Positions 14,474 through 64,000 of a DNA stretch of 64,000 nt are shown one piece after another. The position numbers and the translations under genes are program-made. The DNA is from Nitrospirota bacterium (GTDB lineage: Bacteria > Nitrospirota > Thermodesulfovibrionia > Thermodesulfovibrionales > JdFR-85): assembly GCA_015492645.1 (NCBI GenBank), contig WGER01000029.1, forward strand, positions 36,244 through 100,243. Direction: 5' to 3'. Each line of letters begins with the position of its first letter. The stretch's first letter is position 1. The notes under the pieces were generated by a model. It was given only the letters and a program-made list of their open reading frames with translations, did no database searches and was not told the origin of the DNA.

Positions 14474-15073
14474 TCAGACCCCCACCTGCTGGGGCTCTTG
14501 CTCTGCGACATCCACTATCTCTATCGCCCCATACTGGCAGACCTTTATACACTCACCACACCTGCTGCACCTCTTATCCACTATCTCAAAGGGGAGATAC
14601 CCCGTTCTATAGGGTGCCTTCTTCTCACCCACAATCGCAAAGTCCTTGCAGACCTCAAGACAGTCTCCACACATGGTGCATTTTTCAGGAATCACCCTGT
14701 ATCTGATGAGCGCCTTACAGACCCTTTCAGGACACCTACCGGTGGCATGGGCGACATAGACATCCTCCTGCTCCTTTAGACTCTTCTCTATGTACTCAGC
14801 CACATCCTTTCCCCTCTTACACATAGAGGAGATGAACATCTTGGGAACAATCTCTCTTATCGCATCTATGTCCTCCCTGCCACCACGCCCCTCAATCAGG
14901 TTCCTCACCCTTATCCTCATCTCGTAACTACCCATCGGACAGGGCAGACACCTGCCACACATCGGCCCATCAATAAACTCATCTAACAGACGTATCACCC
15001 TGTGAAGGAGACACCTTTCAGACTCGATCTCCTTAAAAATATCCTTCAGGGTCTTGGCCTTCTCATCACTCAT
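14474..15073 (-). CDS. Stand-alone NuoF C-terminal-like iron-sulfur protein with ferredoxin domain
   Basis: CGRCLPCPMGSYEMRIRV NADH_4Fe-4S-type motif plus two CxxCxxCxxxC motifs; no FMN/NAD domain; start adjusted to MSDEKAKT. Confidence 0.8.
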   Translation of the reverse strand: MSDEKAKTLKDIFKEIESERCLLHRVIRLLDEFIDGPMCGRCLPCPMGSYEMRIRVRNLIEGRGGREDIDAIREIVPKMFISSMCKRGKDVAEYIEKSLKEQEDVYVAHATGRCPERVCKALIRYRVIPEKCTMCGDCLEVCKDFAIVGEKKAPYRTGYLPFEIVDKRCSRCGECIKVCQYGAIEIVDVAEQEPQQVGV

Positions 15074-54192: not shown

Positions 54193-55374
54193 ATGATTTT
54201 GCTAAAAAGATATCTCTATGCTGGATGGGCTTTGCTGATCATTCTTCTCTTGTCCTCTCCCTCCCTCTCTGCTCAGAACACAAAAGGCACAAAGAAGTTT
54301 CCTGATTGTAAGATGTGCCACAAGTACATGGCAACAAGGAAGGTGGTTCATCCCGCTATAACGGCCCTTGGGTGTACTTCATGCCATACACAGCCTCATC
54401 AGAAAAACCCCAAATTCAGGAAGTTCCTTTTTGCGGATGTGCCTGAACTCTGTTTTGGCTGCCATGACAGGAGTATCTTTGAAAAGGCATACAAACACCC
54501 ACCTGTAGCAGAAGGGCAGTGTTTGATGTGCCACGATGTCCATTCCTCTGATAATGAAAAACTCCTTCTTCAACCTCAACCAGACCTATGCTATGGCTGC
54601 CATGGAGATGAAAGATTCAAGAACAATTCTATTCATCCGCCCGTACAGGCCGGCATGTGTACAAACTGTCATGATCCTCACAGTAACAATGCCCCTAAGA
54701 TGTTACCATCAGAGGTGCCTGGTGTATGTTTCAATTGTCATGATAAAGAAAAGTTTGTTTCAGACAAAAAGAGGTATCACCACTCACCCGTATACAGGGG
54801 CCTCTGTCTCAACTGTCATGATCCCCATGCAGCACCAGCCGGAAGGCTTTTGGAAGCCGATGTCCCGGAGTTATGTTGGAAGTGCCATCTGCAGGAGAGA
54901 TTCAAGGACAAGAGGTATCATCCGCCTGTTAAGGATGGCCTATGCATGAGTTGCCATGAGCCCCATCAGTCAGATGCCAGAAAATTAACTGTAAACAGGA
55001 TCCCATATCTATGTTTCAACTGTCATGGCAGTGAGGAGTTTGAGAGGAAGAATGTACATCCCCCTGTGGCCGCAGGGATGTGTACAGTCTGCCACCAGGC
55101 CCACGCCTCATCCTCAATCGCCCTGCTCAAGGACTCTATCAATGTAACATGTCTGAATTGTCATCCAAGGATAATAAAGACACCTCATCCCATCGCATTT
55201 TTCACAGGTCAGGGGCACCCGCTTGAAGGAAGGAAGGACCCAAAGTCAAGGTACGGGGTTCTTTCCTGTGCAAGTTGTCACAATCCCCATAGTTCAGAGT
55301 ATACAAAACTCTTTCGCTATCCTGCCACAACTCCCACAGAACTGTGTAAGAATTGCCATGAGTATATGAAATAA
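54193..55374 (+). CDS. Multiheme c-type cytochrome, 15 CXXCH motifs
   Basis: Counted CXXCH: CKMCH, CTSCH, CFGCH, CLMCH, CYGCH, CTNCH, CFNCH, CLNCH, CWKCH, CMSCH, CFNCH, CTVCH, CLNCH, CASCH, CKNCH; signal peptide. Confidence 0.93.
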   Translation: MILLKRYLYAGWALLIILLLSSPSLSAQNTKGTKKFPDCKMCHKYMATRKVVHPAITALGCTSCHTQPHQKNPKFRKFLFADVPELCFGCHDRSIFEKAYKHPPVAEGQCLMCHDVHSSDNEKLLLQPQPDLCYGCHGDERFKNNSIHPPVQAGMCTNCHDPHSNNAPKMLPSEVPGVCFNCHDKEKFVSDKKRYHHSPVYRGLCLNCHDPHAAPAGRLLEADVPELCWKCHLQERFKDKRYHPPVKDGLCMSCHEPHQSDARKLTVNRIPYLCFNCHGSEEFERKNVHPPVAAGMCTVCHQAHASSSIALLKDSINVTCLNCHPRIIKTPHPIAFFTGQGHPLEGRKDPKSRYGVLSCASCHNPHSSEYTKLFRYPATTPTELCKNCHEYMK

Positions 55375-55843: not shown

Positions 55844-56588
55844 GGGGTATCTGCGGGAACTGATCCAGAAACTGAAGAATGGTTCCCTCTCTGAAGATGA
55901 CCTGATCCAGATACTGAAGAGCCTGCCTTTTGAGAAGGTCCGCTCCAGCCACATAGACCATCACAGACATTTGAGGCATGGTATACCGGAGGTGGTCTTT
56001 GCGAAGGACAAACCAGTGGAAGATGTAGTTGCGATCGGCAGGAGGATATATGAGAAGAGCGGCAGAGTCCTGATCACCAGGGCCAGAGAGGAGATCTACA
56101 GGGCGATACAGATAAAGGAGGCAGAATTCTTTCCCCGTTCAGGTGTGATCGTTGCAGGGATTCCTCAAGACAGGGTTGGTTTGATAGCCATTGTCTCTGC
56201 TGGCACCTCTGATGGACCTGTAGCAGAAGAGGCGGACCTCACGGCAAGTTTTCTCGGTAGTAAGACCCTTTTGATTGAGGATGTCGGTGTCGCAGGTATA
56301 CACAGGCTCTTTGCCTACATGGACTCCCTGATGCAGGCCAATGTGGTGATTGCAGTTGCAGGGATGGAAGGGGCCCTTCCCACAGTGGTCGCCTCTATTA
56401 CAGGTAAGGTGGTAATCGGGGTGCCCACTTCAACTGGATATGGTACCTCTCTCGGGGGGCTCACCCCGCTCTTTTCAATGTTAAACACATGTGTACCCCT
56501 GATAACAGTGGTTAATATTGACAACGGGTTCGGAGCAGCCTGTGTGGCTCACAAGATAAACCTCTTGGTTGCATCAGAGGAGACCTGA
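55836..56588 (+). CDS. larB: Nickel pincer cofactor biosynthesis protein LarB
   Basis: AIR-carboxylase-like fold: VAGIPQDRVGLIAIVSAGTSDGPVAEEA, VAGMEGALPTVVASIT. Confidence 0.92.
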   Translation: MDEGYLRELIQKLKNGSLSEDDLIQILKSLPFEKVRSSHIDHHRHLRHGIPEVVFAKDKPVEDVVAIGRRIYEKSGRVLITRAREEIYRAIQIKEAEFFPRSGVIVAGIPQDRVGLIAIVSAGTSDGPVAEEADLTASFLGSKTLLIEDVGVAGIHRLFAYMDSLMQANVVIAVAGMEGALPTVVASITGKVVIGVPTSTGYGTSLGGLTPLFSMLNTCVPLITVVNIDNGFGAACVAHKINLLVASEET

Positions 56589-57653
56589 GTATCTGTAATA
56601 GGCAGCACAACTCCCCTCTGTGCTCACCATACAGGCCCCAACAGGATGTTCTGGTGTGCACTTCCTTCCAAAGAGGGGACATTCAGGAGGCAACCTCTTG
56701 CCCCGCAGGACATCACCACACCTGCACCCCTTTGGCTCCTCTGCCCTGGGGACCTCTACAGGGAAATGGACCCTGGCATTCCTGTGGGTGAACTCCTCTC
56801 GTAGGTCAAGCCCGCTTCGGGGTATGGTACCAATTCCCCTCCAGTGAGTGTCTGCTGGCCTGAAGACCCTTTCAATTAACTCAACCGCCCTGGGGTTACC
56901 CTCGGGCCTTACCACCCTCCTGTATTGGATCTGGACCTCTGCCCTGCCCTCCAGGAGTTGATCCAGAATCATGAGTATTCCCTCAAGGATATCCGGCCCT
57001 TCGAATCCAGTTATCACAGAGGGAACCTTATACTCTGAGGCTATAAACTCATAAGGTCCAGATCCGATTATGGTACTCACATGTCCGGGTAGTATAAATC
57101 CATCTATCTCTGTCTCAGAGTCTTCAAGGAGTGCCCTCAGGGCAGGGGGAACCAGTTTATGACAACTGTACAGATAGAGGTTTTCGATACCAAGGTTGTC
57201 TGCCTCAACAAGTGTGGCAGCCACAGATGGTGATGTTGTCTCAAAACCTGTGCCAAAGAAGATCACATCTCTATCAGGATTCCTCTTTGCAGTCTCAAGA
57301 CAGTCCATCGGAGAATAGACTACCACCACCCCAGCCCCCTCTGACCGTGCATGATAAAGGGAGAGCCTTGCTCCAGGCACCCTCATCATGTCTCCAAAGG
57401 TGGCCAGTATTACACCCCTCTGAAGTGACAGTGCTATAGCCCTGTCCACATCCTCTATTGAGGTCACACATACAGGACAGCCAGGACCGCTCAACAGTGT
57501 TATATCCTCGGGCAGGAGCGCCCTGATCCCATGCCTGAATATGGCTACAGTATGGGTGCCGCAGACCTCCATTATCTTGATCCCTCTGCCGAGGGACCTC
57601 ACTGCCCTTCTTATACCTGATGTGAGCAACTCTATGTGTCTGTCAATATCCAT
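56574..57653 (-). CDS. hypD: [NiFe] hydrogenase maturation protein HypD
   Basis: MEVCGTHTVAIFRHGIRALLPEDITLLSGPGCPVCVT. Confidence 0.96.
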   Translation of the reverse strand: MDIDRHIELLTSGIRRAVRSLGRGIKIMEVCGTHTVAIFRHGIRALLPEDITLLSGPGCPVCVTSIEDVDRAIALSLQRGVILATFGDMMRVPGARLSLYHARSEGAGVVVVYSPMDCLETAKRNPDRDVIFFGTGFETTSPSVAATLVEADNLGIENLYLYSCHKLVPPALRALLEDSETEIDGFILPGHVSTIIGSGPYEFIASEYKVPSVITGFEGPDILEGILMILDQLLEGRAEVQIQYRRVVRPEGNPRAVELIERVFRPADTHWRGIGTIPRSGLDLREEFTHRNARVHFPVEVPRAEEPKGCRCGDVLRGKRLPPECPLFGRKCTPEHPVGACMVSTEGSCAAYYRYSGLL

Positions 57654-59928
57654 TGTTTGCCTCTGTATGGAGTGCTGTCAGAAATGCCTGTCCCAGTGAG
57701 ACAGAGGCATCATTTGGTGGAAACTCCCTGTGGGTAAAACACTGAAGCCCCTCCTCCTTGAGCCTCCTCTTCATCCTCCTGAGGAGGTAGTGGTTCTGGA
57801 ATACCCCTCCTGACAGTACCACATCCCTAATCCCTGTCTGTCTGGAGATCCTCTTTACACTCATTACAGTTGCCTCCACCACGGTATTATGAAACCTTGT
57901 TGCAATCTCCTGAACAGGACGACCACCGGCATACTCCCTCACAAGGTCCTCCACAGTTGGCCTGTAGTCTATTTCAGAAGGAACTGAGTCTGTCAGTTCA
58001 AATCTGTAAAACCTGTCTATTCCATCAGTAACAGTTGATTCCAGTGCGATCGGGGCCTCTGCCTCAAAGGTATTCACATCCTTCACCGCCAGAAGTGAGG
58101 CTACACCATCAAAGAGCCTTCCACATCCTGAACTCATGACCGTAAACCCACCCATCTGCAGTAACCTCTGTATCATCTCCACCCTCACAGGGGTCACCCT
58201 TTCGGCAAGGCCAAGGCGTTCTATCCATCTGTCTGTCTCTGAGGAGAAGGTCTCTTTAATGAGAGCAATGGCTACCCTCCAGGGTTCCCTTATGGCTGCC
58301 TCCCCCCCTGGCAGTGGGATGTATCTCAGATGGGCGAGCCTCTCAAATCTGCAACCCTCCACGAGTAAAACCTCAAAACCCCACAGCCTCCCATCAGTCC
58401 CATAGCCAGTGCCATCAAGTACCACCCCTATCACAGGCCCATTCAGGTCAGCCTCGGCCAGTACAGAGGCAACATGGGCATGATGGTGCTGCCAGTAGAT
58501 AACAGGCAGACCCTGCCGCTCGGCCCAGAGTCTGCTGTGATACTGGGGGTGCATATCAGTTGCTATAATCCTGGGAGTGACCCTGTAGAGCCTGCACAGG
58601 TTTTCCACCACTTCCTCAAAAAACTGCAGTGTCTCATAGTTTTCCATATCCCCGATATGCTGGCTCACAATGGCGTATCCCTCCTTTGTGAGCGTGAATG
58701 TATTCTTCAGATCTCCACCTGTTGCAAGTGCCTCAGGGGTATGAATCTTTAACTTCACCGAGTTTGGCACATACCCCCTTGCCCTCCTTATCACCAACTC
58801 TGCTGAGAGCACAGAATCATCCACCCTCATGTAGATGTCCCTGTTATGAAATAGAAAGGCGTCCACAATCCCGCTAAGCCTACTCAGTGCATCATCCTCT
58901 CTGTGTACTATCGGTTCCTCAGAGAGGTTACCACTGGTCATCACAAGTGCCTTGAAGTTGGGGGCCCTGCCTGCAGGGTAGTAGAAAAGGAGGTGGTGCA
59001 GGGGGGTGTAAGGCAACATGAAACCGAGGAAGGGGTTCTGAGGTGCTACCCATTCGAGGAGTCTGCCCCTCCTTCTCAGAAGCACAATCGGCCGTTCCTT
59101 GGACAGCAGGAGACGCCTCTCTTCATCTGAGATATGACAGTACTGCTCTATGGTCTCTATATCCGGGGCCATAAGGGCGAAGGGCTTATTCCCCCTCTTC
59201 TTTCTCTGTCTCAGGATCGATACCACTTCTCTGTTTTCAGCATCACAGGCTATATGAAACCCTCCAAGACCCTTTACTGCCACAATCCCTCCCTCCCTTA
59301 AAATTGAAATACAGGCCTCCAGAGGGTCTCTCTCCTCATACATGGCAAAACGGGAAGAGTTTACCTTTAAATAAAGGTGGGGGCCACACTCTGGGCAGGC
59401 ATTGGGCTGGGCATGAAAACGTCTATTCGTCGGATCGTGATACTCCTCTGCACAGACCTTACACATCTCAAACTCTGCCATTGTGGTATTGGGTCTGTCA
59501 TAGGGAAGCCCTCTTGTTATTGTATATCTGGGACCACAGTTTGTACAGTTTATAAAGGGATAGAGATATCTCCTGTCCGAAGGGTCCATCAATTCCCTGA
59601 GACAGTCCTCACATACCGAGACATCGGGACTCACATGGGTAAAACTACCCTCCTCCTCACTCTCGAGTATCTGGAAGTCAGGATACCCGATCTCCTGTAG
59701 TTCTTCCACCTGAATATCCTCAATCCTTGCCAGGGGTGGTGGCGATTCCCTCAATGTGCTCAAAAACTGCTCTGTCCCATCTCCTTCCACCTCTATGACC
59801 ACACCCTTAGAGGTATTCTTCACGAAACCCCGGAGATTCAGTCTCCTTGCAAGATTATACACAAAGGGCCTGAATCCTACCCCCTGTACCACACCTTTTA
59901 CCTTTATCCTCTGGCGGGACATGGACAA
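57643..59928 (-). CDS. hypF: [NiFe] hydrogenase maturation carbamoyltransferase HypF
   Basis: Acylphosphatase domain VKGVVQGVGFRPFVYNLA, zinc fingers CEDCLREL/CTNCGPRYTI, YrdC domain. Confidence 0.96.
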   Translation of the reverse strand: MSMSRQRIKVKGVVQGVGFRPFVYNLARRLNLRGFVKNTSKGVVIEVEGDGTEQFLSTLRESPPPLARIEDIQVEELQEIGYPDFQILESEEEGSFTHVSPDVSVCEDCLRELMDPSDRRYLYPFINCTNCGPRYTITRGLPYDRPNTTMAEFEMCKVCAEEYHDPTNRRFHAQPNACPECGPHLYLKVNSSRFAMYEERDPLEACISILREGGIVAVKGLGGFHIACDAENREVVSILRQRKKRGNKPFALMAPDIETIEQYCHISDEERRLLLSKERPIVLLRRRGRLLEWVAPQNPFLGFMLPYTPLHHLLFYYPAGRAPNFKALVMTSGNLSEEPIVHREDDALSRLSGIVDAFLFHNRDIYMRVDDSVLSAELVIRRARGYVPNSVKLKIHTPEALATGGDLKNTFTLTKEGYAIVSQHIGDMENYETLQFFEEVVENLCRLYRVTPRIIATDMHPQYHSRLWAERQGLPVIYWQHHHAHVASVLAEADLNGPVIGVVLDGTGYGTDGRLWGFEVLLVEGCRFERLAHLRYIPLPGGEAAIREPWRVAIALIKETFSSETDRWIERLGLAERVTPVRVEMIQRLLQMGGFTVMSSGCGRLFDGVASLLAVKDVNTFEAEAPIALESTVTDGIDRFYRFELTDSVPSEIDYRPTVEDLVREYAGGRPVQEIATRFHNTVVEATVMSVKRISRQTGIRDVVLSGGVFQNHYLLRRMKRRLKEEGLQCFTHREFPPNDASVSLGQAFLTALHTEANNGY

Positions 59929-60890: not shown

Positions 60891-61107
60891 CCCAACCCAA
60901 AGGCCCATTTTTAATTTATCAGGAATCCAATTATGACTAACAAGCGGTAATCTGTGAGAAGGTTCCCAGATCTTGATCTTAGTTAAATCTGTAATTGTCT
61001 CCCTTATTTTCTCTGCCGAGGCAGAAACAAAAACTGAAATCTTGTTTTTTCAATAAGTTCAGAGTTCAGACAACTACTTTATCCTGACACCCAAACTCAG
61101 CGGATTA

Positions 61108-61499: not shown

Positions 61500-61560
61500 C
61501 TCTAACGTGATGAGTAACAGGCGCGACGTAAGGAGCTTCCTGCTGACCCAATTGGAACTC
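61500..61560 (-). repeat. Degenerate attC-like site
   Basis: Minus strand: ttccaattgggtcagcagg...cctgttactcatcacGTTAGAG; R' present, R'' box degraded. Confidence 0.4.
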
Positions 61561-62254
61561 ACTTCCATATGTCATTAATTTCAAAAAGTTGAATCCGATC
61601 ATTGAAAATCTCCAATACATATTTTCCAGTAATGATATAAATTCGAGCGAATTCATTCAGAACCCCACTTCTATTTACGAACTCCCTTAGACAACAGGCG
61701 GCTTTGCGACGATCAACTGCGGGTAGCGGCCAATTGTCATAAATAAGAAGCCAGTCTTGCTCAAATCTCTCAAACCCATCTTTTCGGAGTGTAGCCACCT
61801 TTTGCTCGATAAAGTGGAACATTGCATCGGCCCACTCTGTTTCAACTGAGTCACCAGCCCATCCATTACCAGGTTGGTTGGCTTCAATTTCTTCAACCAG
61901 ATCCTTTGCGGACTTCCGGGTCTCTCCGGGGTGATGGTGTGAAATGAAAAATTGATCCGGTCTATTCCCCTTTTCTCTCAGTACTGTTCTATGTGCATCG
62001 TTTTGAGGAACTGCTTCAGTATGCTCAATACCTATCTGCATAGTCCCCAAAATGAGCAAAAAATCAGGGCGCTCTCTCCGAATTAAGCAGAGCGGATATG
62101 AAAGACGGCCTTTCCCAACTAAGGTACTCAGCAAGTAGGCAATAGCATATCGCTCCGTATGCTCTTTCGTGCGACCCTCTGATCTTCTTGGGACAGATAC
62201 ATCTATATTAGATAAGATTCTTAATAATTCAGAATCACTATATGCTTGGAGCAT
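61559..62254 (-). CDS. Hypothetical protein, PD-(D/E)XK nuclease-like pattern
   Basis: RRERPDFLLILGTMQIGIEHTEAV resembles a PD-x(n)-ExT/ExK core; start adjusted to the ATG at codon 10 because the longer start lies inside attC. Confidence 0.5.
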   Translation of the reverse strand: MLQAYSDSELLRILSNIDVSVPRRSEGRTKEHTERYAIAYLLSTLVGKGRLSYPLCLIRRERPDFLLILGTMQIGIEHTEAVPQNDAHRTVLREKGNRPDQFFISHHHPGETRKSAKDLVEEIEANQPGNGWAGDSVETEWADAMFHFIEQKVATLRKDGFERFEQDWLLIYDNWPLPAVDRRKAACCLREFVNRSGVLNEFARIYIITGKYVLEIFNDRIQLFEINDIWK

Positions 62255-62268
62255 GTACCACACCTTTA

Positions 62269-62325
62269 GATCTAACGCCAATTTCTGCGGCGGCTTTAGC
62301 CGTCCGCAGGAAAGGGTGGTTAGGA
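62269..62325 (-). repeat. attC-like recombination site
   Basis: Minus strand: TCCTAACCACCCTTTCCTGCGGACGGCTAAAGCCGCCGCAGAAATTGGCGTTAGAT; R'' TCCTAAC, R' GTTAGAT, stem CTGCGGCGGC/GCCGtCCGCAG with one extrahelical base. Confidence 0.8.
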
Positions 62326-62631
62326 AATTCTGTATTTTTCTATTGCATCTTCAAACTGTCTTTTGCCATGTATCACTGCAATTATTAATATTTGTCTCTC
62401 TTTCACCTGATAGACAAGACGGTAACTATAGACTATCAACTCTCTTATATCTTCCCTCCCTATTTCTGGGACAACTCTTCCAATTTTCGGAAATTCTTTC
62501 AATTTCTCTGTGGATTGAAAAATCTTATTCACTACAGACTTTGCATAAAACTTTGAATCTCTTTCTATATACTCTGCAATAGACTCAATATCTTCTATCG
62601 CTTCTGGAGACCATACTATTCTGTAATCCAT
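62320..62631 (-). CDS. ParE/RelE-family toxin
   Basis: YRIVWSPEAIEDIESIAEYIERDSKFYAKSVVNKIFQSTEKLKEFPKIGRVVPEIGREDIRELIVYSYRLVYQV. Confidence 0.92.
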   Translation of the reverse strand: MDYRIVWSPEAIEDIESIAEYIERDSKFYAKSVVNKIFQSTEKLKEFPKIGRVVPEIGREDIRELIVYSYRLVYQVKERQILIIAVIHGKRQFEDAIEKYRIS

Positions 62632-62804
62632 TTACTTAATCTCTTTTTGGCCTGTTCATGGGAAATAGTGCCTTCTTTCTCAGCGCGCTCTATTCCTTTC
62701 TGGATTTTTCCCAAGACATAAAGATGGTATTGTATATCTTCTATAGTGCAATCGTCTGGAAGTCTTTCCAGTAAAGTTTTAATTTCTTCTTTTACCGTAT
62801 TCAT
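62616..62804 (-). CDS. Antitoxin partner of the ParE/RelE toxin
   Basis: Small acidic/helical protein overlapping the toxin start; KRLSKWITE C-terminus typical of this antitoxin type. Confidence 0.8.
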   Translation of the reverse strand: MNTVKEEIKTLLERLPDDCTIEDIQYHLYVLGKIQKGIERAEKEGTISHEQAKKRLSKWITE

Positions 62805-62837
62805 TGCTAACCTCGCGTTATCGTTTTCTATATTTTA

Positions 62838-62893
62838 CCATAACGCCAATTTCTGCGGCGGCTTTTGCCGTCCGCAGGAAAGGGTTGTTAGAA
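62838..62893 (-). repeat. attC-like recombination site, near-identical to the 62269 copy
   Basis: taacgccaatttctgcggcggcttttgccgtccgcaggaaagggttgttag differs from 62274-62323 copy at two positions. Confidence 0.8.
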
Positions 62894-63118
62894 TCATTGT
62901 ATCTCAAATTCTTCTTTTGGTATTCCTGATTGTCTGATGATAGACATCAATGTGCCTCTTTTTATCTCTTTATGGTCTGGTACTGGAACGGTTATGGTGC
63001 TTTTCCCCATTTGTTTTTGCATTACTATATGGCTTCCTCTTTGTCTTATTTCCTTGAAGCCATATCTTTGAAGTATCTTGCAGACTTCCCTCCCAGACAG
63101 AATTCTCAGTTTGGGCAA
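62894..63118 (-). CDS. hicA: HicA-family toxin
   Basis: LRILSGREVCKILQRYGFKEIRQRGSHIVMQKQ... VPDHKEIKRGTLMSIIRQSGI. Confidence 0.92.
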   Translation of the reverse strand: MPKLRILSGREVCKILQRYGFKEIRQRGSHIVMQKQMGKSTITVPVPDHKEIKRGTLMSIIRQSGIPKEEFEIQ

Positions 63119-63332
63119 CTGCTACCTCAAAAGGAGATATGTATATATCCTCTTTTAACCTTTCTTTGATTTCTTCAGGTGAGGCATGTTCAAAAAACAG
63201 AGTTACCGCCTCTTCTAAATTCTTCTTTGCTTCTTCAATAGAATGTCCCTGGCTTGCTATGTCCAGTTCTGGACATAAAGCAACAAACATGTCTTCTTCT
63301 TTTTGAATTATGGCTGTAAACCTTTGCTTCAT
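62970..63332 (-). CDS. hicB: HicB-family antitoxin with C-terminal run-on
   Basis: QRFTAIIQKEEDMFVALCPELDIASQGHSIEEAKKNLEEAVTLFFE; start adjusted to MKQRF. Confidence 0.88.
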   Translation of the reverse strand: MKQRFTAIIQKEEDMFVALCPELDIASQGHSIEEAKKNLEEAVTLFFEHASPEEIKERLKEDIYISPFEVAVAQTENSVWEGSLQDTSKIWLQGNKTKRKPYSNAKTNGEKHHNRSSTRP

Positions 63333-63392
63333 AACAAATACTAACCTATAAACCTTTTGGTATGCAAGTGCCAGCAATGATGCCTTTTGTTT

Positions 63393-63459
63393 TTATAACA
63401 TTGAACTCACCTGCCGAAAATGCGAGAGCATTTTCGGCAGGTGTAGCGGTTCGTTAGAG
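63393..63459 (-). repeat. attC-like recombination site
   Basis: Minus strand: CTCTAACGAACCGCTACACCTGCCGAAAATGCTCTCGCATTTTCGGCAGGTGAGTTCAATGTTATA; R''/R' TAAC/GTTA, L boxes GAAC/GTTC, long apical stem. Confidence 0.8.
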
Positions 63460-63460
63460 T

Positions 63461-63688
63461 TTAGGTTTTTATATATTCTTTCTCTATTTTCTCTTTTGCA
63501 CCTGATGGAACCTCTATTGATACAAAATATTCTTCAGGATATAGATAGTCTTCTCCGCTTTCATCTATAATCCTGATATATCCTTCCATTTCATCTTCTT
63601 TAATCACAGGATAAATCTTCCATTTCTCCAGAGATGCTGGATATTCTTTATTTTCTATGCATAATACAAATTTGCCTATTCTTCTCAT
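63461..63688 (-). CDS. Conserved hypothetical small protein
   Basis: FVLCIENKEYPASLEKWKIYPVIKEDEMEGYIRIIDESGEDYLYPEEYFVSIEVP; stop directly abuts attC. Confidence 0.7.
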   Translation of the reverse strand: MRRIGKFVLCIENKEYPASLEKWKIYPVIKEDEMEGYIRIIDESGEDYLYPEEYFVSIEVPSGAKEKIEKEYIKT

Positions 63689-63930
63689 AATTTTTCTAAA
63701 ATCCTTTTGATCTTAAATTCCTTCTACTCAATTCCATGTGCCTCATACCAATGTATTTCCGCTCAGTAAATCTGACCACTCCTTAGTTTTATTTTAGCAG
63801 TTCCTTTAAGTTTTCGCCATCTACCTTTGCCATAAATTCTTTCAAGTCTTCTTAATTGACGGATAGACTTGCCAACAGCAATTGTTTCTATATTTTCAAT
63901 CTTTCCAATTATTTCAAAATACAAATATGG
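63685..63930 (-). pseudogene. Degraded small conserved protein (two in-frame stops)
   Basis: EIIGKIENIETIAVGKSIRQLRRLERIYGKGRWRKLKGTAKIKLRSGQIY*AEIHWYEAHGIE*KEFKIKRILEKL, read by hand; stops are TGA and TAG; ATGA overlap with downstream gene. Confidence 0.65.
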
Positions 63931-63963
63931 TCATGCTCCCTTGTTTACCTTTATTTTTTAAAT

Positions 63964-64000
63964 ATCTCTAACGGTCAACATCAGCGGCGGCGCGGCTTCC
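63964..64000 (-). repeat. Start of another attC-like site, cut by the window end
   Basis: Minus strand end: ...ggaagccgcgccgccgctgatgttgaccGTTAGAG. Confidence 0.6.

Follow-up and report, generated by a model that had tools for sequence, protein, structure and literature searches.

Two near-identical repeats near the right-hand end of this 64,000-nucleotide stretch (the window; G000:C29:36244-100243, its right end being the end of contig C29 at position 100243) raise the question of whether they are attC sites of integron gene cassettes and, if so, what kind of element holds them. The original prediction took them for two attC sites flanking a ParE/RelE cassette in a chromosomal integron. We hold with high confidence that the best explanation overall is that both repeats are true attC sites, belonging to integron gene cassettes of a Nitrospirota chromosome, and that the cassettes have moved as units.

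The repeats and the cassettes they bound

A repeat search of the window gave two 51-nt repeats, at 62273-62323 and 62841-62891, which are spaced 568 bp apart and identical at 49 of 51 positions (96%), the two differences being a T/A in the loop and a G/T in the R''-side spacer. The flanking of the ParE/RelE cassette by two such sites, as predicted, holds for the attC identity, the strand and the cassette boundaries alike. The features of the region, with sites scored by covariance model R1 (described below), are as follows.

60915..61062, + strand: decayed remnant resembling a C70 cassette gene (76.8% over 151 bp to L008:11308-11456)
61559..62275, - strand: probable next cassette, ORF of about 231-240 aa (ORF listing)
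62272..62325, + strand: attC site 1, bottom strand, closing the ParD/ParE cassette (R1 81.9 bits, folding, identity to site 2); R' core 62272-62276 CTAAC, R'' 62319-62323 GTTAG
62276..62843, - strand: ParD/ParE-like cassette of 568 bp, running from one inferred G^TT cut point to the next (homologous blocks L020 and L070)
62320..62631, - strand: ParE/RelE-superfamily toxin, 103 aa (PF05016, 76 bits, E 2.7e-21; TIGR02385, 41.6 bits, cutoff 27.9)
62616..62804, - strand: putative antitoxin, 62 aa, overlapping the toxin start (position; co-conserved with the toxin, 90-92% aa in L020 and L070)
62840..62893, + strand: attC site 2, bottom strand, closing the HicBA cassette (R1 84.9 bits, folding)
62844..63398, - strand: HicBA gene cassette (homologous block in G002, L062, and in JdFR-85, L022)
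62894..63118, - strand: HicA toxin, 74 aa (Pfam PF07927, E 3.1e-21)
62970..63332, - strand: HicB-like ORF from MKQRF (tblastn to L062, 88.8%)
63396..63459, + strand: second-type attC, bottom strand, with a long stem (fold z -8.45; same element in L018 at 38-96 and in L071)
63399..63971, - strand: third cassette, with two small ORFs (63461-63688 and 63763-63924), bounded by attC-like elements
63968..64000, + strand: first part of another attC (CTAACGGTCAACATCAGCGGCGGCGCGG...), truncated at the contig end (sequence; arm CAGCGGCGGC as in other sites of the order)

When the + strand was folded, as the original prediction had proposed, sites 1 and 2 gave -14.1 and -14.8 kcal/mol (z -3.85 and -4.46), values that none of 200 dinucleotide shuffles of either repeat matched; both strands of both repeats in fact fold better than 200 of 200 shuffles. 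The R boxes and L stem were paired, the spacer unpaired and the extrahelical bases conserved. The right arm of the + strand, GCCG-T-CCGCAG-G-AAA, pairs with TTT-C-TGCGG-CGGC (TTTCTGCGGCGGC), leaving a T plus one of two adjacent Gs unpaired on the R''-L'' arm. The extrahelical T of the prediction is present, and the arm can have a second extrahelical base, this G, which the prediction did not see. The minimum free energy structure instead takes the G into a T.G wobble. The spacing is T-N5-G or T-N6-G, depending on which of the adjacent Gs bulges; T and G about 6-8 nt apart on the R''-L'' arm are a criterion for attC (PMC2727003), and every integrase tested excises T-N6-G sites, VchIntIA showing some exceptions (PMC3053210). 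The extrahelical bases belong to the R''-L'' arm, on the strand that does not carry the genes, where a bottom strand should have them (PMC2727003), which bears out the predicted orientation, with cassettes on the minus strand.

In attC register, GCCAA stands unpaired against GGGTG/GGGTT and the terminal loop is 4 nt; when single sites are folded freely, some of this spacer pairs weakly. The R boxes of site 1, CTAAC/GTTAG, are complementary and its R' core fits GTTRRRY, while the R' of site 2, GTTATGG, fits that consensus imperfectly. A G after the AAC of R' is typical of attC (PMC2727003). The parE stop codon overlaps R'' of site 1. An Rfam search of the region returned a tRNA plus sub-threshold chance matches and nothing else.

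In every cassette one toxin-antitoxin operon, or else one or more small genes, precedes the attC, and all cassettes share one orientation, on the minus strand. Read on that strand from the right, the order is partial attC, two-ORF cassette (which the second-type attC closes), HicBA, ParD/ParE and an ORF of unknown family, with decay by 60.9 kb. The array is lower in G+C (0.36-0.43) than the flanking chromosome (about 0.50). The ParE/RelE pair is assigned as toxin and antitoxin by family models for the former and by position for the latter; neither the 62-aa putative antitoxin, nor the HicB-like ORF, nor the ORF at 61559-62275 matched a family in Pfam or NCBIfam. This last ORF is most likely the next cassette; a clear attC at its 3' end was sought by eye and none was found. 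The original prediction saw the two clear sites and missed two further attC sites of other types. The second-type site lacks, in the window copy, a bulged T kept in the relative L018, and a match to the 3' end of the third cassette (87.5% over 64 bp) lies where contig G002:C22 ends.

Two side observations concern single genes. The HicB-like ORF extends beyond the stop position of its G002 homologue and overlaps hicA in another frame. Outside the array, by eye and from sequence only, positions 54193-55374 hold a multi-haem cytochrome c-like ORF with CxxCH repeats of about 46 aa, near hypF/hypD-like genes (57643-59928 and 56574-57653) that were likewise named by eye.

A site family across the order, and the exchange of cassettes

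Covariance model R1 was built from 15 sites of the window's genome and its relatives. Genome-wide searches with it and with BLAST, on which the site count rests, gave only five clear sites in the window's genome (sites 1 and 2 of the window, a pair at the end of C70 and one weak site on C41), together with one further marginal R1 match. Four of the five lie in two arrays at contig ends, and the C41 site is isolated. The original prediction had named copies spread through the genome away from cassettes as the finding that would speak against it, and this is not the distribution found. It had also described high attC similarity within the array as characteristic, which is true of sites 1 and 2 but not of the other window sites and the C70 sites, which are of other or diverged types.

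Across the order, 29 of 61 genomes contain R1 matches at E <= 0.001. Forty-four sites in Nitrospirota relatives fit one covariance model, which excludes a chance origin of the repeats. Standard pairs make up 88.6% of this alignment, and 77.9% of R helix cells are paired. It contains 84 double-changed pair cells against 34.6 in shuffles and has a covariation score of 0.321 against 0.152, with none of 500 shuffles reaching any measure; because the sites were aligned by fitting to the model, the counts lean towards structure, but slid versions drop to 35-54% paired. An earlier covariation count on 15 close sites was uninformative, whereas the 44-site set is informative. Of the 44 sites, 42 retain the extrahelical T, and the extrahelical G is present in 36 of 42. 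Pattern matches also occur outside the phylum, in Pseudomonadales, Acidobacteria and a proteobacterium (L017, L019, L021) and on a viral contig (L023). Two of these were set aside as chance hairpins, L021 as a 70-bp tandem repeat and L023 for having no R boxes.

In the relatives, attC matches often fall within a few hundred bases of contig ends (for example G002:C22, G006:C159, G011:C223 and G004:C63), which suggests that assemblies of metagenome-assembled genomes (MAGs) in this family break in cassette arrays and that array sizes are underestimated. A longer attC type lies beside the short one at L020:3421-3491 (weak R1 match, fold), so the L020 array also mixes types.

Comparing 60.4-64 kb of the window with the relatives' loci by BLAST, we found the ParD/ParE cassette in WFVK01000159.1 (L020; 94.8% over 575 bp) and in G006:C57 (L070; 92.8% over 572 bp), in both cases with none of its window neighbours. 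On the upstream side the window, L020 and L070 all share ...CATAAC and then diverge (GCCAATTT, the GGCC end and ATCAAGGAAA); on the downstream side the homology starts at the AAC of attC. The HicBA cassette is common to G002 (L062, 89.4%) and to JdFR-85 (MTOU01000013.1, L022, 93.2%, up to the contig end there), and a different downstream cassette follows in each genome. That the same cassettes lie between different neighbours in related genomes means that they have moved. Cassettes have been exchanged singly, and the breakpoints fall at the R' core, as integron recombination would produce them. Such exchange between genomes supports the identity of the repeats; we consider the observation confirmed and take them to be real attC sites of integron gene cassettes.

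In three relatives the toxin frame is split over two frames beside an intact antitoxin (ParE-like at L020:4088-4397 and L070:2020-2327, HicA at L062:1898-2099), while both toxins are intact in the window. The split frames could be toxin inactivation or sequence errors in MAGs.

Other origins for the sites bear on the same evidence. Transcription terminators, or palindromic repeats of a REP or MITE-like kind dispersed in the genome, could look like attC and would also give strong hairpins at gene 3' ends and an isolated copy such as that on C41. No terminator-like site was found, however, so the repeats are not read as transcription terminators; both edges of the homology blocks fall at the R' core, beyond which the neighbours differ; the R boxes and the extrahelical bases on one arm are conserved; and sites of the same type flank cassettes beside intI in G026. 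Given also the five clear sites of the genome-wide search, we reject this origin as barely credible. Nor do we favour the spread of cassettes by segmental duplication or by homologous recombination between similar repeats in place of site-specific recombination. Near-identical attC copies could indeed recombine within a genome, but what the genomes share stops at the AAC of R' instead of running on through the adjacent attC, L070 continuing with ATAACATCAAGG where the window reads ATAACGCCAATTT, and we regard this route as very improbable.

The integrase and the kind of element

A whole-genome profile search for intI gave a best TIGR02249 score of 76.6 bits in the window's genome, against a cut-off of 265, and the sub-cut-off matches are two Xer-like genes only. 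In the order, 14 of 61 genomes pass the cut-off, among them two members of the same family, G002 and G007. JdFR-85 (G001), of the same genus, has only a 119-aa C-terminal intI remnant, next to aroC (L067:119-594; aroC named by eye from its translation). A motif, AACATACTTTATCTTATTGTCYAACTTGC, lies upstream of both this remnant and the intact intI of G007 and is probably attI; no copy was found in the window's genome with up to 3 mismatches allowed, a search that a diverged attI could escape. The truncated integrase and likely attI of JdFR-85 are an integron platform in decay.

Could the window nonetheless hold part of a complete chromosomal integron, with intI and attI in an assembly gap beside the contig ends of C29 or C70? 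In its favour, the MAG contig of the window breaks off within an attC, which leaves room for intI in such a gap, C70 ends in a cassette, and G002 and G007 of the same family carry intact intI. Against this, a genome of 91 contigs with an estimated completeness of 100% has no intI at the cut-off and no attI motif, and where the same-genus JdFR-85 keeps its C-terminal relic, the equivalent aroC neighbourhood here has no intI adjoining. On balance a complete integron is a possibility that we consider somewhat unlikely. The array is best called a CALIN, meaning clustered attC sites with no integron integrase (PMC8618304), or else an integron end, the platform having been lost or left unassembled: two clear attC sites and two of other types lie within 1.7 kb with no intI, in an array cut by the contig end. 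The attC array of the original prediction thus stands, but its label of chromosomal integron was overstated, and CALIN is safer because no intI or attI was found in the genome.

Taking the array as a CALIN or integron end, we can outline how it may have formed. With the + strand single-stranded, each site would fold into a hairpin with R boxes, an unpaired spacer and the two extrahelical bases, T and G. This would be the form that an integron integrase binds and cuts at G^TT in R', and cutting there would lead to the exchange of cassettes as whole units. From the structure and the exchange, we infer that IntI does this cutting and recombines these sites. The array would then have been filled by an integrase since lost from the genome (or unassembled), and would now be static or dependent on integrase supplied in trans, with the toxin-antitoxin cassettes probably stabilising it. 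A more speculative version, which we rate as unlikely, is that the integrase was lost in the lineage while arrays persist, and that neighbouring Nitrospirota integrases act in trans on the shared attC type, so that cassettes circulate between genera. If true, this would amount to a shared pool of toxin-antitoxin cassettes with few resident integrases.

Comparison with known systems

The literature covers integrons, CALINs and toxin-antitoxin cassettes well (PMC8618304), and this is ordinary integron biology, the array being a further example of a well-known element. In Nitrospirota, attC sites are mentioned once, in passing (PMC9668308), and a 2021 review does not list the phylum (PMC8618304); our literature search, with many journals outside its coverage, found no dedicated study of Nitrospirota attC sites. 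The locus gives this phylum a further documented array, whose cassettes have been exchanged one by one between genera. It also completes a natural series within one family, from intact intI through a truncated relic to none detectable, which is useful for asking how integrase-less arrays form.

The array resembles CALINs (PMC8618304) in having several attC sites and cassettes with no intI detected in the genome; it differs in that the window contig ends inside the array, so that the absence of a nearby intI is unproven. With sedentary chromosomal integrons such as the Vibrio superintegron it shares cassettes in one orientation, lineage-typical attC sites and toxin-antitoxin cassettes, but the window array is short, mixes attC types and is without an integrase, and its attC sites are about 51-54 nt where the superintegron has long VCR repeats. 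Like attC sites of class 1 integrons (T-N6-G type, PMC3053210), the window sites have an extrahelical T and G about 6 nt apart on the R''-L'' arm and, at site 1, an R' core of GTTRRRY, whereas the sequences are unrelated and the GTTATGG of site 2 is off consensus. A further likeness is to the complete integron of G026:C77, from a relative in the same order, which has an intact intI of 411 aa (12553-11318, minus strand), unlike the window, and cassette ORFs on the plus strand, divergent from intI; its attC sites at 14702 and 15206 (minus strand) match the same R1 model and carry the same extrahelical T and G.
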